Source: Spirochaetales bacterium (GTDB taxonomy: Bacteria; Spirochaetota; Spirochaetia; Sphaerochaetales; Sphaerochaetaceae). Taken from it: a stretch of 40,839 nucleotides of DNA. Made by a program: the position numbers and the translations under genes. Where the stretch lies: contig JAGBWX010000104.1 in NCBI GenBank assembly GCA_017629575.1, positions 1-40,839 on the forward strand, in the 5' to 3' direction. Below the pieces are notes generated by a model that searched no databases, was not told the origin of the DNA, and saw only the letters and a list, made by a program, of their open reading frames with translations. Shown in pieces: positions 1,734 through 27,649 of this stretch. How positions within the stretch are numbered: the first letter of the stretch is position 1; every line of letters begins with the position of its first letter.

Positions 1734-2771
1734 TCATTTGAAATATACAGCTTTTTCCTTTCGCTCTATAACTTTACCTATAATCCTGCAATAAGGCTTA
1801 CCGATCCTTCTAACAACTTCTTCCGCATCCTCTTGATTTAAAAAGAGCATAAGGCCACCAGATGTCTCTGGATCGCAGCATAAATCCTTCATCTCCTGTG
1901 AAAGAGATGAATCGAAGTCCACTTTATCTGCAACATAATCTAGATTATGGTACATGCCCTCAGGAAGAAGGCCGAAGCGAGTGTACTCTAGCGCATTAGG
2001 AAGGATTGGAAGCTTTGAGGTGTCTATCTCAATTGTAACGCCACTGGCATTTGCAACCTCACTAGAGTGCCCCGCTATCGAAAATCCCGTTACATCTGTT
2101 GCTGCATGAACACCAAGATCCCTAGCAGCATCCCTGCCCTCTTTGTTGAGTCTTGTCATGGAATCAACAGCAGCTTCAACGCTCTCAGGGGAGGCCTCTC
2201 CTCCCTTTAAGGCCGTGTTTATTATTCCAACACCTAACGCCTTTGTAAGAACGATTGAGTCTCCAACCTTTGCACCTTTGTTGGACCAAACCTCATCTTC
2301 CCTCATAAAGCCTGTTACGCATAGTCCATACTTTGGAGTTGGATCTGAGATTGTATGGCCACCAGCAACTACTGCTCCAGCCTCTTCGATCTTCTTGAGA
2401 CCACCTAGAAGAATATCCTCCATTACAGAGAGGTCTAAGCATGATGGGAAGCATAGAAGATTCATTGCAACATTAGGCTCACCGCCCATGGCATAGACGT
2501 CAGATAGTGCATTTGCTGCTGCAACCTGGCCAAATATGAATGGGTCATCTACCATAGGTGGAAAGAAGTCTACAGTCTGTACAGATACAATGTCATCCTT
2601 TACACGGTATACAAGAGCATCGTCGGCACTCTCAAAGCCCTCGATCAGACGGTCTGAGGTATGGAGCGGAAGCTTGTCTATGACGCTATGCAAAGCCTCA
2701 GGAGGAAGCTTTGCTGCACATCCTGAGGTCTTAACCATAGAAGTAAGTTTTACGTCACTCTTTGTTTTCAT
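1734..2771 (-). CDS. selD: Selenophosphate synthetase (selenide, water dikinase)
   Basis: A 345-residue SelD that makes selenophosphate from selenide and ATP. The N-terminal loop SGCAAK supplies the catalytic Cys18 and Lys21, equivalent to Cys17 and Lys20 of E. coli; Cys rather than selenocysteine is encoded. Other SelD signatures are TVDFFPPMVDDPF, AAANALSDVYAMGG, GGHTISDP and CCDPETSGGL. It is the last gene of the operon yedE-sirA-DUF3343-selD, and its first 17 bp overlap the preceding gene, so translation is probably coupled. No selA or selB is in the window. The neighbours argue that its selenophosphate feeds the labile selenium of molybdenum hydroxylases, as in the orphan-SelD genomes described by Haft and Self (2008). 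SelA/SelB elsewhere in the genome cannot be excluded. Confidence 0.95.
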   Translation of the reverse strand: MKTKSDVKLTSMVKTSGCAAKLPPEALHSVIDKLPLHTSDRLIEGFESADDALVYRVKDDIVSVQTVDFFPPMVDDPFIFGQVAAANALSDVYAMGGEPNVAMNLLCFPSCLDLSVMEDILLGGLKKIEEAGAVVAGGHTISDPTPKYGLCVTGFMREDEVWSNKGAKVGDSIVLTKALGVGIINTALKGGEASPESVEAAVDSMTRLNKEGRDAARDLGVHAATDVTGFSIAGHSSEVANASGVTIEIDTSKLPILPNALEYTRFGLLPEGMYHNLDYVADKVDFDSSLSQEMKDLCCDPETSGGLMLFLNQEDAEEVVRRIGKPYCRIIGKVIERKEKAVYFK

Positions 2772-2991
2772 ATATCATCCTATAGCTTTCGCCTTCCTTT
2801 ATGTATACAGCCTCCAGGTTCTCATCAGATAACTCAACATCAAAGGGAGATGAGAAGAATGCTGCTGTTCCACAGGATGAGGAAAGCGATCTTGGAACTG
2901 GGGCGAGACGAGAGCCAGAGACTCTCTTCTTGAACATCATCGCCCCATAGTGATTGTGAAAAGTTGCTACTTTTTCAGAGTTAGTGTCCAT
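2755..2991 (-). CDS. DUF3343 protein, putative Se/S carrier
   Basis: A 78-residue protein with the DUF3343 hallmark PVPRSLSSSCG, in which Cys40 is the likely carrier residue. DUF3343 proteins are often annotated as putative selenium/sulfur carriers because they co-occur with YedE/YedF and NifS-like genes; a biochemical role has not been firmly shown. It overlaps the sirA-like gene upstream by 25 bp and selD downstream by 17 bp, so these three proteins are probably made in step. The position suggests it passes persulfide or perselenide between the SirA-like protein and SelD or the hydroxylase maturation system. Confidence 0.82.
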   Translation of the reverse strand: MDTNSEKVATFHNHYGAMMFKKRVSGSRLAPVPRSLSSSCGTAAFFSSPFDVELSDENLEAVYIKEGESYRMIYENKE

Positions 2992-3170
2992 TCTCCATCG
3001 CTCTCTACAATAACAGGCTCAATACCGAGAGCCCTTGCAAATCTGGAGATATTCTCCATTGGAACACGGCTGTCTACTGTAACAGCAACCTCAGAGTCTT
3101 CCTTGAGGGCTCTCTTAGTCATTATAACAGGTTCTGGACAGGATAATCCTCTGCAATCGATTTTTTTCAT
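2967..3170 (-). CDS. SirA/TusA/YedF-like sulfurtransferase
   Basis: A 67-residue single-domain SirA-like protein. The CPxP motif (Cys11-Pro-Glu-Pro) near the N-terminus is the persulfide/perselenide-carrying site in this family, and a second Cys is at residue 6. The start was set at ATG 3170, which follows GAGG and begins the typical MKKIDCRGLSCPEP sequence; an upstream extension in the same frame lies inside yedE and is not likely translated. It directly follows yedE (1-bp gap), the same pairing as yedE-yedF in E. coli, which suggests selenium uptake followed by carrier loading. YedF proper is longer and has a second domain; here the DUF3343 gene may play that part. Confidence 0.88.
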   Translation of the reverse strand: MKKIDCRGLSCPEPVIMTKRALKEDSEVAVTVDSRVPMENISRFARALGIEPVIVESDGEWTLTLKK

Positions 3171-3171
3171 A

Positions 3172-4257
3172 TTAGGCCTCCCTCTTCTTGATGAATGTAT
3201 TGATAGAAGCAATTGCAAGTAAAATTGCGATAGATCCAATTACAGCAACCTTGCCATAAATTGAAGGTCCACCAACGCTAGTTGCGCTGTATGCTGATGA
3301 AGCAAGTGAGAAGTTATGAGCAAATGCAGCTCCTGCAATCAAGCCAAGAACAGCAACAGCACTGTCTGTGTTTCCCTCTCCTGCAAGTACCAGCTGTCTA
3401 AGAGGACAGCCACCAAGAAGCGCTGATCCAAGACCAACAACCAACATGCCCAAGAAGTTCCAAACATGCTGTGAGTGAGCAACTGGCTGACCTGCAAAGC
3501 CAAGATTGAACTTGCCTGTTGCAATGTTCATAACCAATGCTGATGCGAAAATAGCTATAAAGCCGCCAAGGAGAGTCCAATCCTTAACGAGAATGACATC
3601 TCTAATTCCGCCAACCATGCACATTCTTGTTCTCTGTGCCATGATTCCAACGATAAGGCCAGCAGCAAGAGATGCGATAATTGGAGCATGCATTGATCCT
3701 GGTCCGCTAGTTGAGAAAGCGAAGATAGATGGAACTGCAATGAAAAGCACAAAAAGAAGGATTGTTGATGCTGGAAGAACAACACCCTCTGACTTTGTCT
3801 GTGTTCTAGCTCTTCCAAGAGAGAAACCCTTTGAAAGGAAGTAACAGCCAATAGCAATGCCTGATGCAAAGCCAGCAAGAGCAACAAGTGCATTCAAGTC
3901 GCCAGCTGCTAAGCGAAGCACCATTCTAAATGGACAACCCAAGAATACCAAAGCTCCAATCATTACCATGAAAGCAATGAAGAATCTTGTAATTGGAGCA
4001 GAGCCACCTCTAGGCTTGAACTCGCCTTTCAGTAAGCTGATTATAAATGAACCAAGAATCAAACCGATAATCTCTGGTCTTACATATTGAACTACGCCCG
4101 CTGTCTGAAGCTTAACAGCACCTGCTATATCTCTTAAGAAGCAAGCAATGCAGAAGCCCATGTTACCTGGGTTTCCCAAAAGTACTAGAGCTACTGAAAT
4201 GATGCCAATAGCTACGCCTGTAAGAATTAAATTACGCTTATCTTTGACTAGTGTCAT
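3172..4257 (-). CDS. yedE: YedE family putative selenium transporter
   Basis: A 361-residue polytopic membrane protein of the YeeE/YedE family with roughly ten hydrophobic segments. Conserved Cys/Gly motifs are repeated: GFCIAC, FLGCPFRM, GTRMCMVGG-like (RTRMCMVGGIRD) and GGCPLRQL. These are the thiol-bearing pore motifs of this family of sulfur or selenium compound importers. The start was set at ATG 4257 behind AAAGGAGGAAT; an in-frame extension to 4335 lacks a ribosome binding site and overlaps the divergent gene. It is the first gene of the selenium operon, expressed from a promoter just upstream. The selenium role is inferred from the selD neighbourhood. Confidence 0.9.
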   Translation of the reverse strand: MTLVKDKRNLILTGVAIGIISVALVLLGNPGNMGFCIACFLRDIAGAVKLQTAGVVQYVRPEIIGLILGSFIISLLKGEFKPRGGSAPITRFFIAFMVMIGALVFLGCPFRMVLRLAAGDLNALVALAGFASGIAIGCYFLSKGFSLGRARTQTKSEGVVLPASTILLFVLFIAVPSIFAFSTSGPGSMHAPIIASLAAGLIVGIMAQRTRMCMVGGIRDVILVKDWTLLGGFIAIFASALVMNIATGKFNLGFAGQPVAHSQHVWNFLGMLVVGLGSALLGGCPLRQLVLAGEGNTDSAVAVLGLIAGAAFAHNFSLASSAYSATSVGGPSIYGKVAVIGSIAILLAIASINTFIKKREA

Positions 4258-4274
4258 GTAATTCCTCCTTTTTT

Positions 4275-4303
4275 TATATACTTTACCATTATATTTTTCA
4301 CAA
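4275..4303 (-). promoter_or_regulatory. Predicted promoter of the yedE-selD operon
   Basis: On the - strand TTGTGA (-35, 4298-4303), a 17-bp spacer and TATATA (-10, 4275-4280), followed 12 bp later by the yedE ribosome binding site. It lies in the 76-bp gap between divergent genes. No tandem TGTTGCA element is present here. Confidence 0.5.
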
Positions 4304-4333
4304 AACAATGGAATTTTATGGTACCTTATCATC

Positions 4334-5473
4334 ATGAAGAGGATTTATCTGGACAATGCAGCAACATCTTATCCAAAGGCCCCCGGTCTTGGCTCTGTCA
4401 TTGCCCAATACATAGAAAACAGCTCAGTTAATCTTAATAGAACGGAAAGCAGCGAGAGCTTTTCCGTATTCGAGACCATCTATGGCTTAAGGGAAAACCT
4501 TTGCACTCTATATAATTACAACCATCCAGAATCCATTGCATTCACAAAGAATGTAACAGAATCTCTCAATTGGATAATCAAGGGATTACTTACAGAAAAA
4601 GACCATGTGATAGTGTCATCAAATGAGCATAATGCGATGATGCGCCCCCTTGTTCAGATGGGAATTCAGTTTGATAGAATTCCATCAAACGACCACGGAT
4701 TTGCTGATTATTGTAAACTTGAGAGCCTTATCAGACCAAATACCAAGGCTATTTTGATCAATGGAGCAGGCAATGTATCTGGTGCAATCGAGGATCTATC
4801 GATTCCAGCAGAGATAGCAAAGAAGCACAATCTTCTGTTTTTCATAGATGCAGCCCAAGCATCTCCTTTTGTTGATATAGACATGCAAAAGCTAAATCTA
4901 GCTGGTGTTGCCTTCACTGGACACAAGAGCTTCTTAGGTCCACAAGGCACTGGAGGCATGATTCTGAGAAGGGATATTGCAGAGACAATCAATCCTTTGA
5001 TTGCTGGTGGAACAGGATCGGAGAGCGACAGGGAAACAATACCAACATCCCTTCCAGATAGACTTACTCCTGGAACTGAAAACATTCCAGGACTTGTTGG
5101 ACTTGCACACTCGGTTAAGTATGTGATTGAGAACAAGAAGGTGCTCTATGAGAGAATTATGGAGAGGACAGAAAAGCTCTATCTTGGACTTGAGGCAATT
5201 GATGGAATTGATATAAAGGGACCTAACCTAAACGAAAGAAGAACGGGAGTTATATCAATCACATCAGATAAGAAGGACATTGCAGAGATTTCATCTCTTC
5301 TCTTGGAAAGAGGTGGAATCGAGACCAGAGTTGGCCTCCACTGCTCTCCTTCTGCGCACAAGAGCCTTGGAACATTCCCAACAGGCACTCTTAGATTCTC
5401 TCCAGGTCCATTCACTACAGACGATGAGATAGAAACAACCATCTCCCTCATCAAGGAGATTATCAATGACTGA
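4334..5473 (+). CDS. Class V aminotransferase, cysteine desulfurase-like (EF2568 type)
   Basis: A 379-residue fold-type I PLP enzyme of the NifS/CsdB group. It opens with YLDNAAT, has the cofactor-binding FIDAAQ (about 170-175), the Schiff-base lysine in GHKSF (Lys198), and a catalytic Cys (Cys337) in HCSPSAHKSLGT. This is the pattern of TIGR01977 (EF2568-like), whose members sit in selenium-dependent molybdenum hydroxylase clusters. It is expected to release sulfur or selenium from cysteine or selenocysteine for SelD or for the hydroxylase active site. The gene is divergent from yedE and overlaps xdhC by 8 bp. No ribosome binding site is obvious before ATG 4334, so the transcript may have a very short or absent leader. 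Confidence 0.88.
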   Translation: MKRIYLDNAATSYPKAPGLGSVIAQYIENSSVNLNRTESSESFSVFETIYGLRENLCTLYNYNHPESIAFTKNVTESLNWIIKGLLTEKDHVIVSSNEHNAMMRPLVQMGIQFDRIPSNDHGFADYCKLESLIRPNTKAILINGAGNVSGAIEDLSIPAEIAKKHNLLFFIDAAQASPFVDIDMQKLNLAGVAFTGHKSFLGPQGTGGMILRRDIAETINPLIAGGTGSESDRETIPTSLPDRLTPGTENIPGLVGLAHSVKYVIENKKVLYERIMERTEKLYLGLEAIDGIDIKGPNLNERRTGVISITSDKKDIAEISSLLLERGGIETRVGLHCSPSAHKSLGTFPTGTLRFSPGPFTTDDEIETTISLIKEIIND

Positions 5474-6398
5474 CTACTATATGACATTAAGAGAGCTCCT
5501 GAAAAATGGAGACGTTGAAAGATACACTGATTTAGAGAACAGGAAGGAAGGCTTATATCAAGATGGGAAGCTTATTTATGGCGATGATATAGCCTCTGAG
5601 TCAGCAATCAAGGAAGTAATAAAGCCAGAGGTGCATCTAGTACTGTTTGGAGCTGGGCATATTGCAAAAGCAATCTATGACTTGTCTGTACTTCTTGGAA
5701 TGAAAATAACAGTCTTTGACGAAAGACCTGAAATTCTCAATGAAGAAAGGTTTCCAAACGCAGAGAGGATATTGATGCCTTATGAGGATATATTCAAAAG
5801 CGATTTCTCCTTTTTTAGGCCTTACTACCTCATCCTCACCCATGGACATGATCATGATAAGAACGCTCTTCGATATTGCCTAAATCGAAGCTACTCATAT
5901 CTAGGCATGATTGGATCTAAGGGAAAGGTTGCATCAACTCTCAATGATTTAAGGGAAGAAGGCTTCTCTGATGAGAAGCTCTCTGGAGTTCACGCACCTA
6001 TTGGACTCAAGATTGGAGCCCAAAGTCCAGAAGAGATTGCAATATCTATAATGGCAGAGGTAATTGGCGAATACAGAAAGGACAAGAACCTAGTAAATAT
6101 CAGTCCTGATTATTTGAAGGCAGTGTCATCAAAGAGAGGCATTGCTGTAAGAATCATAGAAAAGAGAGGCTCTGCTCCTAGAGCAATTGGCTCAGAGCTC
6201 TTTGTCACTGAAGACAAGTGCTACGGAACAATTGGAGGCGGTGCAATAGAGCTGAAGGCAGAAGAGGTTGCAAGAGGTCTCCAGAAGGATGAAGAGGTAT
6301 TCCTTGTCAAAGAGCATAGACTCTCTTCAAAGGGAGACCTTGGAATGATCTGCGGGGGTGATGTAACTCTCTTATATCAGCTTAGAGCGCCTAAATAA
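5466..6398 (+). CDS. XdhC family hydroxylase maturation protein, domain order swapped
   Basis: A 310-residue XdhC/CoxI family protein, needed in other bacteria to insert the sulfurated (here perhaps selenated) molybdenum cofactor into xanthine dehydrogenase-type enzymes. A Rossmann domain comes first (LVLFGAGHIAKAI, residues 58-70; THGHDHDKNAL; GMIGSKGK; HAPIGLKIGAQSPEEIAISI). The small XdhC domain (EKRGSAPRAIGSELF, YGTIGGGAIE) comes last. In canonical XdhC the small domain is N-terminal. ATG 5466 follows AAGGAG with 7-nt spacing and overlaps the desulfurase gene by 8 bp, so the two are cotranslated. Its 3' end overlaps the convergent amidohydrolase gene by 27 bp. A C-terminal EF2563 domain, as in E. 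coli YqeB, is absent. Confidence 0.88.
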   Translation: MTDYYMTLRELLKNGDVERYTDLENRKEGLYQDGKLIYGDDIASESAIKEVIKPEVHLVLFGAGHIAKAIYDLSVLLGMKITVFDERPEILNEERFPNAERILMPYEDIFKSDFSFFRPYYLILTHGHDHDKNALRYCLNRSYSYLGMIGSKGKVASTLNDLREEGFSDEKLSGVHAPIGLKIGAQSPEEIAISIMAEVIGEYRKDKNLVNISPDYLKAVSSKRGIAVRIIEKRGSAPRAIGSELFVTEDKCYGTIGGGAIELKAEEVARGLQKDEEVFLVKEHRLSSKGDLGMICGGDVTLLYQLRAPK

Positions 6399-9184: not shown

Positions 9185-12058
9185 TCAGAACTTTCCAAGT
9201 CCCTTGAGAATCTTCTCAGGAGTAATTGGCCATGTGCGAACCCAAACTCCACAAGCATCAGCAATAGCCATCGCAATAGATGGAGCGGCTCCATTAGTTG
9301 CGATTTCAGAGATTGACTTAGCTCCGAATGGGCCGAACTTGTCATCAACATCAATTAATACTGACTTGAAGTCCTCTGGGCTCTCATAGATCATTGGTGT
9401 TCCGTAGTCTGTGAAGTTAGCATTTACGCATGTGCCATTCTCATCAAGAATCATACCTTCATAGAGGGTATGGCCAATCGACTTCATAGCAGCACCATAC
9501 ATCTGGCAAAGAGCAATCTCAGGATTGATTGGAGTTCCAGCATCCTGGAGAGCATAGAACTTGTTAACCTTTATTTCACCAGTTCTTACGTTTACAGCAA
9601 CTTCAGCAAAGTGTGCGCCATAAGGAACTGCGAAGTTAGGTGTTACGAATGTTCCCTTTCCAATCATCTGACCTCTGCCATCGCCCTGGAGAGCATCGTG
9701 GCTGAGCTTAGAATATGTGATTTCCTTTCCGCTCTTTGAAACAATCTTGCCAGGCCATACGAGCTCAAGCTCTTCTTTTGGCTCACCAAGCTGCAAGGAA
9801 GCTTCTACGAGTACCTTTTCCTTAAGATCCTTAACAGCCAAGAGTGATGCGTTTCCTGAGAAGTATGTTCCAGAAGATGCATATGCACCTGTATCGAATG
9901 GACAAGAGTCTGTATCGCCAGAGACAACAGATACTACCTCTAGAGGAACTCTCATGATTTCAGATACGCACTTAGCAGAGATTGTATCCAAGCCTGTTCC
10001 GAGGTCTGCGCCACCTGAGAAGAGGATGAATGTTCCGTCTGTCAGGAGCTTGCACTGTGCTGTTGCATGGTCCAATCCTGGAAGACCAGAACCCTGCTGA
10101 ATCATTGCAAAGCCCTTTCCAATCTTCCAATCAGGATCCTCTGAGACTTCCTTCTTGCCCCAGTTAATCATCTCAGCACCCTGATCGAGAGCTTCCTCAA
10201 GACCACATGAGCCAACAGGAACAACAGCTCCTTCTCTACCTTCGCCAAGGCCCTTGAGGATTTCAAGCATGTAGCCCTCATGGACAATGTTCTTCTTAGC
10301 CATCATAAGTGGATCGATGCCAAGCTTCATTGCAAGCTGTCCCATGCAAGAGATGATTCCAAAATAGCCCTTAGGTGCACCGTAGCCCTGATAAGCGCCC
10401 GTTGGAGGAATGTTTGTGTAATATGTAAGAAGATCGTAATACATATTATCTACAGCAAAGATAGGAAGAGTCTTTGAAGATGCATTCATTGGAACTGTAA
10501 GACAGTGGTTGCCATAAGGACCAGTGTTGGCTCTTACATCCATATAGATAGCAGTAATTGTGCCATCTTTTTTACCACCCATCTTAACTCTAACTCTCAT
10601 TGGATGACGAGTTGAGTTTGCATAGAACTCTTCAGCTCTTGTATTTCTGTAATAAATTGGCTTTCCTGTAATCCATGTGCAATATCCAACAAGATCTTCA
10701 ACAAGAATATCCTGCTTAGAGCCATAGCCACCGCCAACGCGCTCCTTGATGATGTGAATCTTGTTCTCTGGAATCTGACATACCCAACCAACAATTCTTC
10801 TTACATGGTAAGGAACCTGTGTTGAGCAGTTCATTACAAGTCTTCCACCCTCAATGTGTGCATAGCAAACATGAGGCTCAAGTGGTGTGCACTGAATCTG
10901 GCTAGTCTGATATGTTTCATCAACTACAGCATCTGCTTCAGCAAAGCCCTTTTCAATATCACCAATGCCACCATGTGCACCTGCTGCGATATTTCTATGG
11001 CTATCGGCATGGAGAGGGAACTGATAAACAATCTTTCCATCTCTCTCATCAGATGACTTGTTATACTCATCCAGGTCTGCAGGAGCCCCTGCTCTATACT
11101 CTACAATGCCGTTCTGAACTACAGGAGCACCATCAGCCATTGCTTCTTCAACTGTGAAAACAGGAGCAATTGGCTCATACTCAACCTTGATAAGCTCTGC
11201 AGCCTTATCTGCAATTTCTTTAGTCTTAGCAACGATGCCAGCCACTCTATCGCCAACATGTCTAACCTTCTTATTGAAGAGGCGTCTGTCATGTGGAGAT
11301 GGCTCAGGATTTCCCTGTCCTGCCTGCATATAGTAGATGTCTGGGCAGTTGAATGCAGTTACAATCTTTGCAACTCCATCGAGCTTTTCAGCCGCAGATG
11401 TGTCAATAGACTTGATATAAGCATGTGCAAATGGGCTTCTTAATACGTGGAGGCACCATGCGTTCTCTGGGACCTTGTCCTCCACGAACACAGGTTCACC
11501 GGAAACTAATGCAGCTCCGTCAATTTTTCCAGTTGGCTTTCCAATAAAGTCCAAGGAAGGTCTGAATGAAGGTGCAATCTCAGACTTGAACTCACCCTCA
11601 TCCCTAAGCTCTATTGCAAGCTTGACTGCAAGATAATAGTGCTCATAGCCAGCATCTCTGATGAAGATGCCTGAAAGAGCTTCCTGAATATCAGCTTTTG
11701 TTGGATTAGGCTTTTTATCAAGAAGCCAAGTGAGGATAAGAGCAGCAGCTGGTGCATTATAAGCACTTTGAACGATGCCAGCAGCAACCATAGCCTTCTG
11801 AACGTAGTTGATTTCTCTACCATTCATAAGTCCTTCTGCTGTCATGATTTCTGCGCCCTCAGCCTGATAAGCGAGAATGAAGTTAGAATACTTCAGAACA
11901 CCATTGAATACGATAGTGTCAGAGCCTGCGAAGCCTTCTCTATCGTCAGAGTCTCTTACTGAGTTGTAGCCAGCTCTATAGAGAACATCTCTGAGTCTTT
12001 CATCTCTTTCAGCGATAAGAACGATATTTTCGCCATTGATTCTACACTTGATATCCAT
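9185..12058 (-). CDS. xdhD: XdhD-like selenium-dependent molybdenum hydroxylase large subunit
   Basis: A 957-residue homologue of E. coli XdhD (956 aa), a molybdopterin-binding hydroxylase of the xanthine dehydrogenase family thought to act in purine conversion. Residues 1-160 follow a [2Fe-2S] domain fold, but every cluster cysteine is replaced (REGFAGSDTIVFNG, GIVQSAYNAPAAA, SGIFIRDAGY). From about 165 on come the two Mo-binding domains with RVGGGYGSKQD, GAYQGYGAPKG, SGGADLGTGLDT, VSGDTDSCPFDTGAYASSG and the catalytic glutamate in FGAKSISE near the C-terminus. The start codon ATG 12058 follows AAGGAGG, 2 bp after the YgfM-like gene. It is the last gene of the five-gene operon. The E. coli protein shares the degenerate N-terminus, so this is a family trait. 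The substrate is inferred, not shown. Confidence 0.92.
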   Translation of the reverse strand: MDIKCRINGENIVLIAERDERLRDVLYRAGYNSVRDSDDREGFAGSDTIVFNGVLKYSNFILAYQAEGAEIMTAEGLMNGREINYVQKAMVAAGIVQSAYNAPAAALILTWLLDKKPNPTKADIQEALSGIFIRDAGYEHYYLAVKLAIELRDEGEFKSEIAPSFRPSLDFIGKPTGKIDGAALVSGEPVFVEDKVPENAWCLHVLRSPFAHAYIKSIDTSAAEKLDGVAKIVTAFNCPDIYYMQAGQGNPEPSPHDRRLFNKKVRHVGDRVAGIVAKTKEIADKAAELIKVEYEPIAPVFTVEEAMADGAPVVQNGIVEYRAGAPADLDEYNKSSDERDGKIVYQFPLHADSHRNIAAGAHGGIGDIEKGFAEADAVVDETYQTSQIQCTPLEPHVCYAHIEGGRLVMNCSTQVPYHVRRIVGWVCQIPENKIHIIKERVGGGYGSKQDILVEDLVGYCTWITGKPIYYRNTRAEEFYANSTRHPMRVRVKMGGKKDGTITAIYMDVRANTGPYGNHCLTVPMNASSKTLPIFAVDNMYYDLLTYYTNIPPTGAYQGYGAPKGYFGIISCMGQLAMKLGIDPLMMAKKNIVHEGYMLEILKGLGEGREGAVVPVGSCGLEEALDQGAEMINWGKKEVSEDPDWKIGKGFAMIQQGSGLPGLDHATAQCKLLTDGTFILFSGGADLGTGLDTISAKCVSEIMRVPLEVVSVVSGDTDSCPFDTGAYASSGTYFSGNASLLAVKDLKEKVLVEASLQLGEPKEELELVWPGKIVSKSGKEITYSKLSHDALQGDGRGQMIGKGTFVTPNFAVPYGAHFAEVAVNVRTGEIKVNKFYALQDAGTPINPEIALCQMYGAAMKSIGHTLYEGMILDENGTCVNANFTDYGTPMIYESPEDFKSVLIDVDDKFGPFGAKSISEIATNGAAPSIAMAIADACGVWVRTWPITPEKILKGLGKF

Positions 12059-17815: not shown

Positions 17816-18442
17816 ATGGCCAAAATTATTAAGATTACAGACCTGACTGTTTTTATAGGCTTAGACAATGGAACAATCAAGGGAGTAAGAAAAGATAGCA
17901 TATCCTTTGTTCCTGCCGTAGATATGAAAGTACAGGTAATCGACGATGGAGCAGTAACTGTTGTTACACCTTTAGAATCATTTGAAAATGTTCCAGCAGA
18001 GACTGTAGAAGAAGTTGTAGTTGAAGAGACTGTTCCTGTAGTAGAAGAATCAACAGAAGAGGTTACAGAACCTGCAGAAGATGTTGCAGAACCTGCTGCT
18101 GAAGCTCCAGCAGAAGAAGTTCTTCCTGTAGAGGCAGCTCTTCCTGTTGAGGAAGCAAAGCCTGAGGAAACAAAGAGTGTAGAAAAGGCTGAAGATAAAA
18201 AGTCAGCTAAGAAATCAAAGAAAAAGAAGCAGAAGGTTACAGATAAGCTTACATATATCATTCTTGCCCTTACATTCGGAAAGCTTGGTATTCATAAGTT
18301 CTTTGCAGGCAAGATTTTTGCAGGCATTATCTACTTATTGCTTGGATCTATCCCAATTGTTTCATTGATTGTTTATATTTTCATTTTCTTCGACTTGATC
18401 ATTGCGCTCTGCAAACGCGCAGATGAAAGAGGAAACATTTAA
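17816..18442 (+). CDS. TM2-domain membrane protein with acidic Pro/Ala linker
   Basis: A 208-residue protein in three parts. Residues 1-60 form a small beta-rich domain of unknown type (ITDLTVFIGLDNGTIKGV). Residues 60-125 are a low-complexity Glu/Pro/Ala/Val linker that then becomes very Lys-rich. Residues 140-205 form a TM2 domain: two hydrophobic helices around the FGKLGIHKFFAGK region and a C-terminal helix ending CKRADERGNI. TM2 proteins are small membrane proteins of poorly known role. The gene is well expressed by its promoter and ribosome binding site and is followed by a zinc-ribbon membrane protein gene. Function unknown. Confidence 0.85.
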   Translation: MAKIIKITDLTVFIGLDNGTIKGVRKDSISFVPAVDMKVQVIDDGAVTVVTPLESFENVPAETVEEVVVEETVPVVEESTEEVTEPAEDVAEPAAEAPAEEVLPVEAALPVEEAKPEETKSVEKAEDKKSAKKSKKKKQKVTDKLTYIILALTFGKLGIHKFFAGKIFAGIIYLLLGSIPIVSLIVYIFIFFDLIIALCKRADERGNI

Positions 18443-18480
18443 TCCATAGTCTTGGGTTATTGAATTTTAGGAGCGTATTT

Positions 18481-18963
18481 ATGAAAACATGTACATATTG
18501 TTCAAGAGAAGTTGAAGATAATACTAATTTCTGCCCAGATTGCGGAAAGCCATTCAATGAAGTCAAAGATGGAAAGAAAAAGAAGCGCAATATTGTTGTA
18601 AACAATAAGCTGATCAGCATTTTTGCAGGTATTTTCTGTATTTTCTTTGCTGCACAATATAGGGAATTCAAATTGTTCTGCGCTTTTGCTGTTGTAGTTG
18701 GCGCAGCTCTTCTGGTTAATAGAAAGAATTCAAAGGATGATGTTCTCACTCACTGCATTAAGGTTACCTTAATTGTTCTTGGAGTGGTTGCTATTGCTGC
18801 CTTCCTTATTCAGCTAGATGGAACAATGCCTATAATTAATACACTGGAGGAACTTGGAGATAAGGTTCAGGACTCTTTGTATGACTTTGAGAGAGATGTT
18901 ACAAAATTGTTGAAAAACAACAAGAAAGCATTAGAAAGTCTCCTTGATATACTTGATGTTTAA
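18481..18963 (+). CDS. Zinc-ribbon membrane protein of unknown function
   Basis: A 160-residue protein. The N-terminus is a zinc ribbon (CTYCSREV, then CPDCGKPF; Cys pairs at residues 4/7 and about 18/21). A Lys-rich stretch and two or three hydrophobic segments (LISIFAGIFCIFFA, LFCAFAVVVGAALLV, VTLIVLGVVAIAAFLI) follow, and the tail is an amphipathic, charged helix. ATG 18481 follows TTTTAGGAG; a TTG 21 bp upstream is in frame but unlikely. It lies 38 bp after the TM2 gene and is probably cotranscribed. Many small bacterial membrane proteins have this zinc_ribbon_2 plus membrane layout; the role is unknown. Confidence 0.82.
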   Translation: MKTCTYCSREVEDNTNFCPDCGKPFNEVKDGKKKKRNIVVNNKLISIFAGIFCIFFAAQYREFKLFCAFAVVVGAALLVNRKNSKDDVLTHCIKVTLIVLGVVAIAAFLIQLDGTMPIINTLEELGDKVQDSLYDFERDVTKLLKNNKKALESLLDILDV

Positions 18964-19100: not shown

Positions 19101-20447
19101 CTAAGCTTTGATCTTATCTACAGTCTTCCAGACTCTAGAAGCGATCTTTTCAGCTTCGCCATAGATCTTATCTACATCCAAGTGTGGGAATACTCTGTTT
19201 TCCATCACTACTCTACCGTCTACGATAACTGTATTTACATGTCCTGATGCCATGCCCCAAACAAAGTGTCCTGCTGCATTAGCGTTTAATAAAGGAGTTG
19301 GATTCTTGTAATCGAGGAGAACGAGGTCTGCCTTGTATCCAGCTTCAACTTTACCCCACTTGCCTCTTCCACCGAAGTTTGAAGCTACAAGCTCATTGCC
19401 TCTATTGAGAGCTGCTACAAAATCTGATGGCCAGAATGGACCACCGTCATCCTTATGCTTGAAGAATGCACACTTGAGCTCTTCAAACATATTGCCGCCA
19501 CAGCCATCTGTTCCAATAACAAGCTTCTTGATCAAAGGAAGCTTATTGCAATAGCCAATGTGGTTGTTCATGTTTGATCTGCCCTGGTGGGAGATGAAGC
19601 AGCCTCTTTCATTAGCCTTTGCTATTTCCTTCTCACTGAGCCATACGCCATGAACAAGAAGAGTATTATCTGCAAGAAGTCCAAAGTCATCAAGTCTATC
19701 TACAATATCCTTGCCATAGTGATGATGGGAATGAATCTGGTCGTAGTGAGCCTCTGCAACATGCAGGTGCATGCCTCTTCCAGTTTCCTTCACAGCTTCG
19801 CTCATTAGCTTCAAGCCTTCATCAGGAATAGTGAATGGAGCATGTCCGCCAATCATTGCTTCGCAGAGAACATTTTCACCCTTTGCTCTTCTTGCATCGA
19901 CTTCTTTTGCAAAGCGGATATTTTCCTCAACACCTTCCTCAACTTCCTTCATGCCACCATTTCTATCTGTGATTTCGAAACAAGTAGATCCTCTGACACC
20001 TACTTCTTCCATACCTCTTGCAATAGCTGAAAGAGAGCCTTTGATGTAATTAGGAGATGCATGATGGTCAACACAGCTTGTTGTACCAGCTGCAATTGCA
20101 TCAAGAGAACAGATAAGTGATGAGTAGTAAGTTGCTTCCTCATCAAGACCTCTGTCGAGTCTCCACCACCACTCCTTAAGAACCTGGATGAAGTCTTCCT
20201 GAGGACCTGCTGAAATCTGCATGCCTCTTGATAAGCCAGAGTAATAATGATGGTGTGAGCATACATTGCCTGGCATGAGGGACTTGCCAGAACCGTCGAT
20301 TACCTTAGCACCAGGGATATTATCCCCAGCGCCCTTGCCAACAGAGAGAATCTCGGAACCTGAAATGACAACGTCTACACCCTCTAATACATCAAATGGA
20401 GGCTGAGTCTGAATAACTCTAACATTCTTGATTACGAGCTTTTCCAT
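19101..20447 (-). CDS. ssnA: SsnA, putative aminohydrolase
   Basis: A 448-residue amidohydrolase superfamily protein matching SsnA (E. coli 442 aa). Metal-binding motifs: VCSHHHYYSGLSRG (His65-67 region, the HxH), MHLHVAEAHYD, LLVHGVWLSE and the catalytic Asp in IGTDGCGGNM. SsnA belongs to the chlorohydrolase/guanine deaminase-like group and is a marker of anaerobic purine catabolic clusters together with ygfK, ygeW and xdhD; its exact substrate is unproven. It starts 3 bp after the ygfK stop codon, with the ribosome binding site AGAGGAG overlapping the end of ygfK, so the two are cotranslated. Confidence 0.92.
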   Translation of the reverse strand: MEKLVIKNVRVIQTQPPFDVLEGVDVVISGSEILSVGKGAGDNIPGAKVIDGSGKSLMPGNVCSHHHYYSGLSRGMQISAGPQEDFIQVLKEWWWRLDRGLDEEATYYSSLICSLDAIAAGTTSCVDHHASPNYIKGSLSAIARGMEEVGVRGSTCFEITDRNGGMKEVEEGVEENIRFAKEVDARRAKGENVLCEAMIGGHAPFTIPDEGLKLMSEAVKETGRGMHLHVAEAHYDQIHSHHHYGKDIVDRLDDFGLLADNTLLVHGVWLSEKEIAKANERGCFISHQGRSNMNNHIGYCNKLPLIKKLVIGTDGCGGNMFEELKCAFFKHKDDGGPFWPSDFVAALNRGNELVASNFGGRGKWGKVEAGYKADLVLLDYKNPTPLLNANAAGHFVWGMASGHVNTVIVDGRVVMENRVFPHLDVDKIYGEAEKIASRVWKTVDKIKA

Positions 20448-20450
20448 ATC

Positions 20451-23400
20451 TTACTCCTCTACAGGACCCAAAAGGTATGGGTATGAGATGAATACTTCAG
20501 CAATCATTGCCTTGATTTCATCTGGTACATCTGCTTCAACGAAACCGTCGTCGTTGATCTCTCCCTTGATAATATTTCCGGCATAGCGAATAGTGAGCTT
20601 TTCACCATCTGCAAGGAAACCTGAGTTTTCTGAATTCTCGAAGTCATCCATTCTTGAGAAGAGTGTGAACTTCTTGAGGTATGGACCACCTGAGTGTGGG
20701 CAGAATGTTGCACAGTTGCCGCACTCGTTACAGTATGCATCGAGGTGGAGAATCTGGAATGGATCTTCAAAGATGCCTGATTCTCTCATATCGAGAGCAA
20801 CGTTTGCTCTGTTAGGACAAACCTCTACACACTTGTTGCAAAGATATGAGCATTCAACACATCTTGATGCCTCAATCTTCAAGAAATCCTTTGCACCAAG
20901 CTCTGCAGGAAGAGTAATCTTTGCCTTCTTTGAGCGGATGGATGCAAAGAACTTATTCTCTGCTTCAATCATTGCCTCTTCTGACTCTTCTTCCTCTTCT
21001 TCGTGATCATGTCCACATGTGCATTCATGGTCTTCACCATGGTCGTGGCCACATGTGCACTCATGATCTTCATCGTGATCATGTCCGCAGCAGCATTCGT
21101 GGTCTTCATCATGATCATGTCCGCATGTGCAAACATGTTCTTCGTCATGGTCGTGGCCACAGCAGCAATCGTCGTCATCTTCACCTTCGAGCATCTTCTC
21201 GTATACAGAGTCAATTGCCTTATCTACAGCATCGCGAGCTGATGCAATGCATCTTACTACAGTTGATGGGCCAGTCTTTGTATCGCCGATAACAAATACA
21301 TTTGCCTTTTCTTCGTCAGCGCCTAATGCCTTGAGAACAGCAGGATCTGCCTTTTCGCCGATAGCAGAGATGATGTATGAGCAGTCAAGCTTGAATGTTC
21401 TGCCAGTATCAACAGGTCTTCTTCTGCCAGAAGCATCCTTTTCTCCAAGTTCCATTTCCTTGACTGTCATGATGCCATCTGTAAGATCTGCAGGATTTGC
21501 GAGGAATACAAACTTGATGCCATCGTTCTTTGCCATGATGTATTCTTCTCTATCAGCAGGCATTTCTGACATTGATCTTCTATAGATGATTGTTACGTTT
21601 TCTACGCCCTTGATTCTCTTAGCCATTCTAGCTGCGTCCATAGCAGTGTTTCCGCCACCAATGACTACAACGTCCTTGCCAAGATCGATATCTTCGCCAT
21701 GCTTAGCTCTGTAGAGGAATGAGATTGCAGATTCTCTTCTGCCGTTGCCTGTAACACCTGGGTCGTTAGACTTGTCAGCACCGATAGAAACGAATACATA
21801 ATCAAAGCCTTCAGCCTTGAGCTCATCTACGCTCTTCTTTGCTGAGAAGTGGAACTTAGCGCCCTGAGCCTCAACAAAATCGATATCCTTCTGTACAGCT
21901 GCTGCTGGGATTCTGAACTCAGGGATAATGTTCATTACAACGCCACCAGCATTAGGCTCTTTTTCAAATACATGAGTATCAAAACCTGCTGATGCAAGGA
22001 AATATGCAGCTGAGAGACCTGCAGGACCTGCACCGATTACAGCAGCCTTTACATCTGCTGGTTCATCCTTGCCACCCCAGATTTCTTTCTTGTAATCCTC
22101 AAAGCCCTGCTCTGCGCAGATTCTCTTTACTTCTCTAATCTGAACAGCGCCCTCATAGTCCATTCTTGTACAATGGAGCTGACACTGATGGTCGCAGATC
22201 CAACCTGTGATGTTAGGAAGTGCGTTTGTCATATAGATGAGAGCAAGAGCCTCTGAGATTCTTCCCTCACCTGCAAGTGCGATGTAATCTGGAATTGGCT
22301 GATGAATTGGACAAGCTTCTACACATGGAGCTACATAGCAATCAAAGAGCTCAAGAGGAGTTCCAACCTTAGCTTTGTTATCGCCTCTGAAGTCCTTTGA
22401 TACGATGCCTTCTGGATCTGATGCCTTATCAACAAGCTTCTTGAGCTTTGCAATGTCGATATAGTCCATGTCCCAGCCCTTTGACTGATAGAGAACCTCT
22501 GCAATCTGCTTCATTCTCATATATCCGCCTGGCTTGAGCATGTCTGTTGCTAGTGTGATAGGATGGATGCCGCTTTCGAGGATATCCTTTGCAGAAAGTG
22601 CAGATGCGCCACCTGAGTATGATACAGGAAGCTTGCCATTGAATTCCTCTGAAAGAACGAGGGCAACTCTTGTTGAGATAGGAAGAAGAGTTCTTCCTGA
22701 CATGTATCTTTCATCTCCAGGAAGTACATCCTTAGGGTTTACGTTGCCAAGAGTGTTTGTAAGCTTAACGCCGAAGCCTCTACCTTCCTTTGCTGCGAGC
22801 TCTACGAGGCGATGGAGCATCTCCTTTGCATCCTTAAGCTGAAGATCGTGCTCAAATGCTGAACGAGCAAGCTCGATATTATTGAATCCGAGAGAGTCGA
22901 GAATGCCTCTTACTGTGTCATAGCCAAGGAGTGTTGGATTAAGCTTTACGAATACATCAAGCTTCTTCTCTGTAAGAAGGTAGCTACAGATAGCCTCGAT
23001 TTCCTTTGGAGGACAACCGTGCATTGTAGATACTGTTACTGATGGTGAAATATTCTTTGAAATCTTATCAAGAGATGCGATTACTGCATCCTCTGAGCCC
23101 TCAAGGTCTGTCATCTCAAACAGTCCATCCTTGAGCATTTCTCTAGCTTCTTTGATATAAGCATCAAAAAGAGGCTTCTTTCCTGCATCGATCATTGAAT
23201 CGATGTAAATCTGCATCTTTTCCTGCTTGATGCCTTCAAGGTTATAGCCAACTGACATATTGAAGATGAATGAAGGCTTTTCTATAACAGCCTTCTTCAT
23301 TGCTGATTCGAGGATATGGAGAATAATCCATGCCTTCAAATATTCGTCATAGGCCTTTTCAAGTGTATATTCTGTTGACCATTCAACGTTATGGCCTTCA

Positions 23401-23705
23401 TCTCTTGCATCAATACAAGGCTTTGCAATCTCTAGATGGTCCATGATCTGGACTGTCTTGAGCTCCATGAATCTAGCGCCAACAAGGTAGCTAGTTACAA
23501 TATTCTGAGCGAGCTGAGTATGGGGACCTGCTGCAGGACCAACTGGAGTTGTGCAGCACTGGTTGAATACTTTTACAGTCTTGTCACCCTTGTCTGAGTA
23601 GAATTCCTCTCTTGGTATACCGAAGACTGAATTCTGATTTCTGTACTCTCCAACAATTCTCTCAAGAAGTTCGGAGAAGGAAACTGGTCTCATGATATCT
23701 GCCAT
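20451..23705 (-). CDS. ygfK: YgfK, large iron-sulfur flavoprotein with His/Cys-rich insert
   Basis: A 1084-residue homologue of E. coli YgfK (putative selenate reductase subunit; role in purine catabolism). Residues 1-450: dihydropyrimidine/dihydroorotate dehydrogenase-like FMN barrel (MSVGYNLEGIKQEKMQIY, STMHGCPPKEIEAI, VKLNPTLLGYD). About 455-530: N-terminal glutamate synthase-like FeS segment (CVAPCVEACPIHQPIP, CDHQCQLHC). About 545-835: FAD and NAD(P) folds (IGAGPAGLSAAYF, VIGGGNTAMDAARMAKR). Residues 847-906: five 12-residue repeats rich in Cys, His and Asp. About 945-1010: two [4Fe-4S] clusters (CVECSYLCNKCVEVCP, CNECGNCATFCP). ATG 23705 is preferred over ATG 23711 because GGAGGG abuts the latter. 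Promoter and tandem operator lie upstream; ssnA follows. Confidence 0.93.
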   Translation of the reverse strand: MADIMRPVSFSELLERIVGEYRNQNSVFGIPREEFYSDKGDKTVKVFNQCCTTPVGPAAGPHTQLAQNIVTSYLVGARFMELKTVQIMDHLEIAKPCIDARDEGHNVEWSTEYTLEKAYDEYLKAWIILHILESAMKKAVIEKPSFIFNMSVGYNLEGIKQEKMQIYIDSMIDAGKKPLFDAYIKEAREMLKDGLFEMTDLEGSEDAVIASLDKISKNISPSVTVSTMHGCPPKEIEAICSYLLTEKKLDVFVKLNPTLLGYDTVRGILDSLGFNNIELARSAFEHDLQLKDAKEMLHRLVELAAKEGRGFGVKLTNTLGNVNPKDVLPGDERYMSGRTLLPISTRVALVLSEEFNGKLPVSYSGGASALSAKDILESGIHPITLATDMLKPGGYMRMKQIAEVLYQSKGWDMDYIDIAKLKKLVDKASDPEGIVSKDFRGDNKAKVGTPLELFDCYVAPCVEACPIHQPIPDYIALAGEGRISEALALIYMTNALPNITGWICDHQCQLHCTRMDYEGAVQIREVKRICAEQGFEDYKKEIWGGKDEPADVKAAVIGAGPAGLSAAYFLASAGFDTHVFEKEPNAGGVVMNIIPEFRIPAAAVQKDIDFVEAQGAKFHFSAKKSVDELKAEGFDYVFVSIGADKSNDPGVTGNGRRESAISFLYRAKHGEDIDLGKDVVVIGGGNTAMDAARMAKRIKGVENVTIIYRRSMSEMPADREEYIMAKNDGIKFVFLANPADLTDGIMTVKEMELGEKDASGRRRPVDTGRTFKLDCSYIISAIGEKADPAVLKALGADEEKANVFVIGDTKTGPSTVVRCIASARDAVDKAIDSVYEKMLEGEDDDDCCCGHDHDEEHVCTCGHDHDEDHECCCGHDHDEDHECTCGHDHGEDHECTCGHDHEEEEEESEEAMIEAENKFFASIRSKKAKITLPAELGAKDFLKIEASRCVECSYLCNKCVEVCPNRANVALDMRESGIFEDPFQILHLDAYCNECGNCATFCPHSGGPYLKKFTLFSRMDDFENSENSGFLADGEKLTIRYAGNIIKGEINDDGFVEADVPDEIKAMIAEVFISYPYLLGPVEE
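20988..21167 (-). repeat. Five 36-bp in-frame repeats encoding a His/Cys/Asp metal-binding-like insert
   Basis: Within ygfK, five tandem 36-bp units encode CCCGHDHDEEHV, CTCGHDHDEDHE, CCCGHDHDEDHE, CTCGHDHGEDHE and CTCGHDHEEEEE (residues 847-906). They sit in the linker between the FAD/NAD domain and the C-terminal ferredoxin domain. The units differ at synonymous positions, so the array is not a very recent expansion. CxCGHDHD resembles Ni/Zn-binding His-Cys tails of metallochaperones. Confidence 0.93.
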
Positions 23706-23738
23706 ATGCATCCCTCCATGTATTTGTCTACTAATTCA

Positions 23739-24690: not shown

Positions 24691-25230
24691 ATGGAAAGAC
24701 TAAAAGAGTATACCGTAGCACCTTTGGAAGCAACATCTCAAACTCCTGAGGCAATCATCTCAGGCATCCTTGATGATGAGATTAAGGCAAGGATGATTAA
24801 AGTCATCAAAATTGAGGCTCCAATTCGTCAATCGCTTCTTTATAAGAGAACGATAAATTCTTTCTCTCTACAGAAGGTTGGCTCTAGAATTCTTCAAAAA
24901 TTTGATGAAATAGCCACAAGTCTTGATTTTGACTATATCGAAGAAAATGGCGAAAAGGTATATATCTTTGGAGAATCTCAATTCTTCAGACCTACTCCAG
25001 ACTCCGAGGTAAGGTACTCTTATCAGATTCCATACATAGAAGGCGCAAACTGTATTCTCCACATCCTTGAATCTAGAGATAAATCCTCTTACACCCAGAA
25101 AGAGCTTTCATATATCTTTGCAGAGACAATGGGCTACCAGAAGCTGGGTGCAAAGGTATTGGAGCTCTTTAAGGAGTCGCTAAAGGATCAAAGAATCAAG
25201 AAGAACAAAAATGGAAGAGTACAGAAATAA
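24691..25230 (+). CDS. Stand-alone DUF3320-like domain protein
   Basis: About 179 residues from ATG 24691. The motif IEAPIRQSLLYKRTINSF followed by KVGSRILQKFDEIATSL resembles DUF3320, a domain normally found at the C-terminus of large superfamily I helicases of restriction or defence type (pattern EaPI-hydrophobic-RR, then G-R-hydrophobic). A second copy-like stretch (ILESRDKSSYTQKELSYIFAETMGYQKLGAKVLELF) suggests two winged-helix-like units. No helicase part is present. The start is uncertain: no good ribosome binding site precedes ATG 24691, and a TTG at 24643 would add 16 residues. It overlaps the following HD-domain gene by 20 bp. Either a helicase remnant or an independent DNA-binding protein; function unknown. 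Confidence 0.6.
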   Translation: MERLKEYTVAPLEATSQTPEAIISGILDDEIKARMIKVIKIEAPIRQSLLYKRTINSFSLQKVGSRILQKFDEIATSLDFDYIEENGEKVYIFGESQFFRPTPDSEVRYSYQIPYIEGANCILHILESRDKSSYTQKELSYIFAETMGYQKLGAKVLELFKESLKDQRIKKNKNGRVQK

Positions 25231-26083
25231 GCGCCTTTATAAGATATATGAAAATAAGGTATCGCAAATAGAGACGCTTCCTGAGTCTAGGACAATATTC
25301 AAATCAGAAAGAGCTCAGACTGAAATTCTATATTCAGAATCCGGGGATACTACTCTTATAATCGCTGGAGAAGAATATAAGGGAAGCTTCTATTTAGCAT
25401 CAGAGCTGTTGGAGGAATGGATTCTTCCCCTACTTGTAGAAGGATATTCACCTTCTCTCTGGAATCTTTCACCAATAGATTCCAGCTATATAAATGAACG
25501 TATCCTACCTATGTATGATAACTTTGATGGAGCCCATCAAAGAGACCATGCAATATCGGTAATCGATGCAAGCTTAGCTGCTGCAAAAGACTTGGGAGTA
25601 AACCCTGAAATCTGCTACATTGTTGCAGCCTTCCATGATATCGGACTCACTATATCCAGAGAATTTCACCACACAGAGTCAGCTAGGCTATTTAGGGAAA
25701 ATGAGTATATTAAGTCTCTGCTTTCTGACCAAATCATAAATCTGATTGCCCAAGCCATCGAAGATCACAGAGCATCTAGCAAGAATCTCCCAAGAAGCAT
25801 CTTTGGGATAATCGTTGCCGATTCAGATAGGCTTCTAGAGCCAAGAACTGTTGTCTCAAGGACTATAAAGTTCGGAATTGCAAGATATTCCTCCTCTTTT
25901 GATATGCAATTGGAAAGATGCTATGACCACATTAGTAAAAAATACTCCCGAGAGGGCTATTTAAAATACTATCTCCCTACAATACAAGATATTAACAATC
26001 GCGAAAAACTTTACAAACTTGCAGAGGACAAAAAAGCGTTCTCAAAATTTTTCGATGAAATATATCAAGAAATTGTAAAATAA
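25211..26083 (+). CDS. HD-domain phosphohydrolase-like protein
   Basis: A 290-residue protein. Residues 1-90 form a poorly defined domain with several beta strands. From about 105 on comes an HD domain with His113 (HQRDHA), His142-Asp143 (FHDIG) and a downstream Asp (IVADSDRL, about residue 207), the set expected for a metal-dependent phosphohydrolase. HHTESARLF adds further histidines. HD proteins hydrolyse nucleotides or other phosphate esters; the substrate cannot be read from the sequence. It overlaps the DUF3320-like gene by 20 bp, so the two are cotranslated. Confidence 0.75.
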   Translation: MEEYRNKRLYKIYENKVSQIETLPESRTIFKSERAQTEILYSESGDTTLIIAGEEYKGSFYLASELLEEWILPLLVEGYSPSLWNLSPIDSSYINERILPMYDNFDGAHQRDHAISVIDASLAAAKDLGVNPEICYIVAAFHDIGLTISREFHHTESARLFRENEYIKSLLSDQIINLIAQAIEDHRASSKNLPRSIFGIIVADSDRLLEPRTVVSRTIKFGIARYSSSFDMQLERCYDHISKKYSREGYLKYYLPTIQDINNREKLYKLAEDKKAFSKFFDEIYQEIVK

Positions 26084-26185: not shown

Positions 26186-27649
26186 ATGCTTATCAACTTA
26201 GAAAAACACCCAGAAATCATAAAGAAAAATGCAGAAAGATGTAAGGAAAAGGGAATCACACTCCCAACATTCAAGCAAATGAAGAATCCTGCTCTCATTC
26301 CTGACAGCGTAAAGGAAAACCTCAAGAAGGCAGGCCTTTGGGATGTTAATCCAGTTAACCTCTATAGAATCAACTGGCACAATGAGCCTAAGGAAGCTGG
26401 CGGCCTCTACAATGACGTAAACTTCATTGAAATCCCTAGAGAAATTACAGGAACTAAGGCTAGAGTTTTAGCACTCGCTGGCAAGTGGTTCCCTTGTGGA
26501 GTACATAAGGTAGGCGCAACATACGCATGTCTCGCACCAGCACTCGTAACAGGTAACTTTGACGCAGTTGAGCAGCAGGCAGTATGGCCATCAACAGGCA
26601 ACTACTGCAGAGGCGGCGCATATAACTCAGCTCTCCTCGGATGTAAGAGCATCGCGATCCTTCCTGAAGACATGTCACAGGAAAGATTCAATTGGCTCAA
26701 GACTGTAGCTGGCGAAATCATCGCAACTCCAGGCTGTGAATCAAACGTTAAGGAAATCTTCGACAAGTGCCATGAACTCGATGCAGAGAGAGGCAAGCAC
26801 ATTGTTATCTTCAACCAGTTCGAACAGTTCGAAAACTACCTCTGGCACTATGAAATCACAGGTTCTGCTATCATCGAAGTACTTGAAAAGCTCGGTGTAA
26901 AGGCAGAGAACGTAAAGGGATACGCATCTTCAACAGGTTCAGGCGGAACACTCGCTGCTGGCGACCACCTCAAGGACGTATATCCAAACATCAAGATTGG
27001 TGCTGGTGAAGCTCTCCAGTGTCCTACACTCCTGAGAAACGGCTTTGGCGGACATAGAATCGAAGGCATCGGCGACAAGCACGTTCCATGGATCCACAAC
27101 GTAAAGAACACTGATATGATCCTCGCTATCGATGACCAGGATTGTATGAACATCTACAGACTCTTCAATGAGCCAGCAGGTATTGAGTATCTCAAGTCAA
27201 TCGGCATCAAGGACGAAGACATTGAGAACCTCCAGCTCTTCGGCATCTCAGGCATCGGCAACATGCTTTCAGCAATCAAGATGGCTAAGTACTATGAAAT
27301 GGAAGAAGATGATGTTGTATTCACAATCCTCACAGACTCTTCAGTCATGTATAAGTCACGTCTCTTAGAGCTTGACGAGCAGCTCGGACCATTCAATTTC
27401 ACAGAAGCAGCTAAGGTTCATGCAGCTTCACTTCTGCATCAGGGCATCGACAACGCTCTCGAGCTTACATACTACGAACGTCTCAGAGTACACAACCTCA
27501 AGTACTATACATGGGTTGAACAGCAGGGCAAGACATATGATGAACTGAACAGACAGTGGTATGACAGAGACTACTGGAAGTCAATTCCAAGAATGCTTGA
27601 TGAAATCGACAAGCTTATTGAGGAATTCAACAAGATAATTACAGGCTAA
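26186..27649 (+). CDS. Fold-type II PLP-dependent enzyme of unknown reaction, highly expressed
   Basis: A 487-residue enzyme related to the cysteine synthase/threonine synthase/diaminopropionate ammonia-lyase group. The likely Schiff-base Lys108 is in FPCGVHKVGATYA, and the phosphate-binding STGNYCRGG is at residues 136-144. A Gly-rich SSTGSGGTLAAGD follows at about 250. It has a ~90-residue N-terminal extension and a long C-terminal tail rich in Tyr/Trp compared with classical members, and it is not YgeX (about 400 aa, different motifs). Codon use is strongly skewed to C-ending and AAG codons, unlike neighbours, pointing to very high expression. Promoter and operator match those of ygfK. It may supply the amino acid lyase step missing from this purine cluster, but that is inference. 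Confidence 0.8.
   Translation: MLINLEKHPEIIKKNAERCKEKGITLPTFKQMKNPALIPDSVKENLKKAGLWDVNPVNLYRINWHNEPKEAGGLYNDVNFIEIPREITGTKARVLALAGKWFPCGVHKVGATYACLAPALVTGNFDAVEQQAVWPSTGNYCRGGAYNSALLGCKSIAILPEDMSQERFNWLKTVAGEIIATPGCESNVKEIFDKCHELDAERGKHIVIFNQFEQFENYLWHYEITGSAIIEVLEKLGVKAENVKGYASSTGSGGTLAAGDHLKDVYPNIKIGAGEALQCPTLLRNGFGGHRIEGIGDKHVPWIHNVKNTDMILAIDDQDCMNIYRLFNEPAGIEYLKSIGIKDEDIENLQLFGISGIGNMLSAIKMAKYYEMEEDDVVFTILTDSSVMYKSRLLELDEQLGPFNFTEAAKVHAASLLHQGIDNALELTYYERLRVHNLKYYTWVEQQGKTYDELNRQWYDRDYWKSIPRMLDEIDKLIEEFNKIITG

Follow-up and report, generated by a model that had tools for sequence, protein, structure and literature searches.

The urate locus and the array in YgfK

The window, by which we mean the whole 40,839-nucleotide stretch of Spirochaetales (Sphaerochaetaceae) DNA analysed here, comes from contig C80, part of a genome of 1.41 Mb that is 85% complete. 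It contains a near-complete reductive urate locus with ygeW, selD, a YedE-type transporter gene, a cysteine-desulfurase/selenocysteine-lyase-like gene, an XdhC-like gene, an XdhD-type gene, ssnA and ygfK; a PALP-family enzyme encoded at 26186-27649 could be YgeX. The features on which the analysis relies are the following.

20451-23711, minus strand: ygfK, 1086 amino acids in unbroken translation (TIGR03315, 1258 bits, cut-off 835)
20988-21167, minus strand: five 12-residue CxCGHxH units, YgfK residues 849-908, by exact parse of the units
20922-21261, minus strand: the whole acidic insert region, from AlphaFold secondary structure and the alignment of relatives
19101-20447, minus strand: ssnA, metal-dependent amidohydrolase, 3 nt downstream of ygfK (TIGR03314, 544 bits, cut-off 455.5)
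9185-12058, minus strand: XdhD-type Mo hydroxylase of the same pathway (TIGR03313, 1225 bits, cut-off 1102)
1734-2771, minus strand: selD (TIGR00476, 363 bits, cut-off 125)
1734-6398: selD with the YedE-type selenium transporter, cysteine desulfurase/Sec-lyase-like and XdhC-like genes, adjoining the urate cluster

Other genes share the window. Plus-strand genes at 17816-18963, flanked by the xdh genes and ssnA, encode a TM2-domain protein and a zinc-ribbon membrane protein. A 195-residue ORF at 24643-25230 matches DUF3320 and weakly resembles the C-terminal part of the anti-phage protein ProA (44.9 bits, cut-off 1500); an HD-domain ORF (25211-26083) adjoins it.

The array-bearing protein scores above the curated cut-off for YgfK and, judged by homology, would serve reductive urate breakdown as its flavin/Fe-S reductase. 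In E. coli, XdhD converts urate to yanthine, YgfK reduces yanthine and SsnA opens the ring; YgfK alone gave no detectable product, and the coupled YgfK/SsnA assay contained 1 mM ZnCl2 (PMC12507026). Given this role in yanthine turnover, YgfK is no longer best taken for a selenate reductase, and the old name is no guide to the array.

The five units are, in order, CCCGHDHDEEHV, CTCGHDHDEDHE, CCCGHDHDEDHE, CTCGHDHGEDHE and CTCGHDHEEEEE, with the consensus C(C/T)CGHDHDEDHE, and tandem-repeat analysis (TRF) returned periods of 36/72. The CxCGHxH motif occurred 0 times in 2000 shuffles of the ygfK ORF. Two long helices (residues 818-847 and 911-930 in the AlphaFold model) flank the insert, and the array directly precedes the C-terminal ferredoxin domain. 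Model confidence falls below a pLDDT of 50 at residues 849-903 only and is high elsewhere; a 100-residue stretch holds 12 Cys, 14 His and 39 Asp/Glu. The array is thus predicted to be both disordered and dense in Cys, His and acidic ligands. A PDB search with the array gave only a chance-level match (E 0.43), and a literature search for its literal motif strings gave none. The preliminary description had recognised five 12-residue repeats, each with two or three Cys and two or three His, in the linker that joins the flavin domain to the C-terminal ferredoxin, and both the count and the position hold. Its estimate that the protein exceeds E. coli YgfK by about 50 residues is close to the excess of about 55 that we find over enterobacterial YgfK (in Citrobacter, about 1031 residues with a 30-residue linker).

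The claim that the units are kept by selection on the protein was also borne out. Among the units of the window, pN/pS is 0.15, a rough ratio given the few synonymous sites, and third-position identity is 0.56 against a chance expectation of 0.51-0.56. We also considered recent slippage or concerted evolution and rejected it, because the units are no more alike within a species than between species (third positions 0.551 and 0.552).

Across the whole genome, the coding pattern of the motif, searched as DNA, matched eight times, five in ygfK and three in one other gene, while a reversed control pattern gave 0 matches. The second gene (L035:8225-9589, contig C100) encodes a TPR protein with the C-terminal tail CRCGHHHHHHGECGCGHHHHDHECSCSNHDEEECGCGHHHCH and lies upstream of a tsaE-like gene. 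Several further species of the genus have an orthologue of this TPR protein with such a tail. In G013, the TPR tail is Cys/His-rich and the YgfK insert has no His, so that, in this one genome, the loss of His from the insert does not extend to all such arms.

The insert across the family

The family sample comprised 123 species with a readable YgfK insert, from 22 genera in the search. An acidic insert is present at this site in every one of them, and the array is therefore neither peculiar to one strain nor an assembly artefact, either of which would have undermined the preliminary description. Counted between fixed alignment points, the family insert spans about 43-103 residues with 30-55% Asp/Glu, whereas the same points enclose 29-35 residues in nearly all cases in other bacteria. 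At least three Cys and at least two His are found in 87 of the 123 inserts. Aligning YgfK from relatives, as had been proposed, showed that repeat number varies: most species have 0-3 CxCGHxH motifs, and the maximum of five is reached in the window only. Both insert length and motif number vary freely among relatives.

Over the YgfK tree we count only two changes in the state of the insert itself and about seven in its Cys/His content. Several species (for example G174, G175 and G156) have acid-only inserts, which implies that the Cys/His arm is dispensable for YgfK, and a His-less clade adjoining the window in the tree has kept its Cys and lost only its His. Between sister species, Cys (77%), His (70%) and the acid class (74%) are conserved while other residues turn over (46%; Gly 34%).

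Histidine content and a ZigA-like GTPase

What is new in our data is a reciprocal distribution between His in the YgfK insert and a ZigA-like GTPase that has a D/H-rich loop of its own. A combined query was run over the whole order (139 genomes), and YgfK inserts were then read from the fetched regions. Where the ZigA-like gene is present, 16 of 19 inserts are His-less and three bear His; where it is absent, only 5 of 104 are His-less and 99 bear His, as if a His arm could sit on either YgfK or the ZigA-like protein. Within the genus of the window, no array-bearing member has such a GTPase, whereas most of the genomes with His-less inserts do. The anticorrelation is strong by Fisher's test (3.6e-13, or 6.8e-7 when genomes below 90% completeness are set aside). 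Pagel's dependent model was preferred as well (LR 29.6, 4 df, p 5.8e-6), in a test with a known weakness when events are few and on a YgfK gene tree built without the insert. Strictly independent contrasts run nearly all one way, mostly 3-5 against 0, and are too few to reach p <0.05. Importantly, we came upon the association post hoc, when SelD had already been tried. It has exceptions on both sides: G080, G084 and G086 have both the arm and the ZigA-like gene, and G030, G156, G161, G162 and G172 have neither a His arm nor that gene.

The ZigA-like proteins of relatives have 400-450 residues, with a G3E GTPase domain carrying a GCICC motif and, in nearly all fully readable cases, an acidic loop with 4-37 His. 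ZigA is their best-matching model (NF038288, 307-319 bits), and we call them ZigA-like only, because this score is below the curated cut-off of 600. Five of them, whose acidic loops contain up to 37 His, are:

L184, 6145-7422: ZigA-like G3E GTPase
L183, 5245-6576: ZigA-like G3E GTPase
L181, 4564-5790: ZigA-like G3E GTPase
L182, 4458-5678: ZigA-like G3E GTPase
L179, 4200-5492: ZigA-like G3E GTPase

These genes are patchy across the family and have no evident shared genomic neighbourhood. Their products share 77-82% identity across species with more divergent YgfK proteins (about 58-62% identical to that of the window), a likeness that suggests horizontal spread of the gene. Other G3E matches (123-136 bits, in G059, G062, G064, G066 and others) share about 30% identity with the ZigA-like proteins and were kept apart as another subfamily.

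A putative zinc arm and its alternatives

Based on these results, we consider that the array is a Cys/His arm binding d-block metals, which would act on YgfK as a tethered zinc buffer or loading arm with SsnA as the likely client, and we give this reading a probability of about 0.55. The disordered, strongly acidic arm would hold several d-block ions at modest affinity, Zn(II) being the likeliest, and would buffer or load metal from its tether on the urate-pathway reductase; its likely local client would be SsnA, the amidohydrolase that must act together with YgfK. At the level of sequence, metal binding is supported by the retention of Cys and His between sisters while other spacer residues turn over, and by the anticorrelation of His with a relative of a zinc-chaperone GTPase. 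That the disordered Cys/His arm trades places with this His-armed relative is also what points to a zinc buffer or loading arm. We infer metal binding in the cell, zinc as the metal, and SsnA as the client rather than general zinc buffering; zinc in particular is taken from the resemblance to ZigA, at a score below that model's curated cut-off. SsnA is the natural client because its gene lies 3 nt downstream, because it is catalytically coupled to YgfK and because it was assayed in vitro with added zinc. Nevertheless, this step is a guess, since ssnA adjoins ygfK also where the linker is short and armless, so that SsnA needs no arm in general. More tentatively still, and with the odds well against it, the family may have built a zinc-loading arm into YgfK as an alternative to the ZigA-like arm for metallating SsnA or its partners.

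The main rival is a protective sink, in which the arm would bind excess Zn, Cu or Ni beside the [4Fe-4S] clusters of YgfK and no delivery would be needed. The place of the arm directly before the ferredoxin domain fits this, as do the mixed Cys/His/acid ligands, which give no sign of specificity, and the free variation in length and number. A sink does not, however, predict the exchange with the ZigA-like GTPase, unless both follow the supply of zinc, scarcity of which induces the ZigA family in A. baumannii (PMC11834433); we regard the sink as unlikely, if a serious contender. The deflating alternative is an acidic spacer or solubility tether, whose disorder and negative charge are conserved and whose Cys and His are tolerated and idle. 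Every insert is indeed acid-rich, acid-only inserts exist, and Cys/His content has changed far more often on the tree than the insert itself. Yet Cys and His match the acids in conservation between sisters and exceed the other residues, most species carry several of each, and an idle arm would leave the non-random link with ZigA-like genes unaccounted for; we rate this alternative slightly less probable than the sink.

Two further alternatives come from the preliminary description, which had proposed either a metal store (Ni, Zn or Cu) or a thiol reservoir handling electrons or selenium; our data favour the metal, speak against nickel in particular, and count against the reservoir. A HypB- or Hpn-like store for nickel enzymes would have precedent in the His-rich tails that bind Ni in SlyD and HypB (PMC7055735). 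However, array-bearing members of the genus of the window have no HypB/UreG-type G3E GTPase, and G030, with a His-less insert, has a hypA-hypB-like pair (L187); nickel storage is therefore very improbable. A HypB-sized G3E match was also seen in G005. The reservoir, in which the thiols of the array would hold selenide or electrons for a neighbouring Se-dependent hydroxylase, draws on the presence of selD, the YedE-type transporter gene and the Sec-lyase-like gene within the window. Furthermore, SelD without SelA and with YqeB is a marker of the Se-dependent Mo hydroxylase system (PMC2276186), and this combination is what we find: YqeB (TIGR03309) is encoded on another contig of the genome and selA was not found in it, at 85% completeness. 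Selenium at this locus therefore probably serves a Se-dependent Mo hydroxylase. For the array itself the evidence points the other way, since its type has no phylogenetic association with SelD (among independent pairs, two same, one opposite and three without difference), Cys-free inserts occur in SelD-positive species, the His-less clade keeps its Cys, and the clearest covariation with the ZigA-like gene is that of His, not of Cys. A reservoir is thus as improbable as the nickel store. SelD as a covarying trait had been an impression from two His-less, SelD-less genomes, G013 and G030, and failed in the independent pairs. Both genomes (L021 and L023) are fragmented, and the failure to detect selD in them may reflect either loss or assembly gaps; YqeB is still present in G013, so that some of the SelD gaps may be of the latter kind.

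If the arm supplies zinc to a pathway partner, metal delivery can be part of a metabolic enzyme in place of a dedicated chaperone. The exchange with the ZigA-like GTPase offers a natural experiment on the cargo and the recipients of bacterial COG0523 proteins. The pathway also has medical interest, since gut bacteria that degrade urate anaerobically bear on gout.

In the literature searched, metal-binding disordered arms are known on chaperones and none is described in the middle of a catabolic reductase. Metallothioneins are disordered, Cys-rich and bind several metals; the array differs in its high His and acid content and in not being a separate small protein. Closer in composition are the SlyD tails of E. 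coli and H. pylori, which are unstructured, rich in Cys, His, Asp and Glu, bind several Ni or Zn and vary between species (PMC7055735). Metal binding is known for SlyD and predicted for the array, and the settings differ: SlyD is an FKBP prolyl isomerase with a terminal tail, whereas the array is an ordered 12-residue repeat inside a flavin/Fe-S reductase in which a Pfam scan found no FKBP domain. YgfK of other bacteria is homologous to that of the window over its full length and has the same operon partner, SsnA (PMC12507026), with the short linker in most cases in place of the long acidic one. The COG0523/ZigA and UreG/HypB families resemble YgfK in that only some orthologues have a His-rich arm, and His stretches occur on UreG where UreE is missing and may stand in for the absent chaperone (PMC2770081). 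Those proteins have a GTPase, unlike YgfK, in which the Pfam scan found no G3E GTPase domain; in this spirochaete family, the armed ZigA-like protein occurs mainly in species whose YgfK arm is without His.
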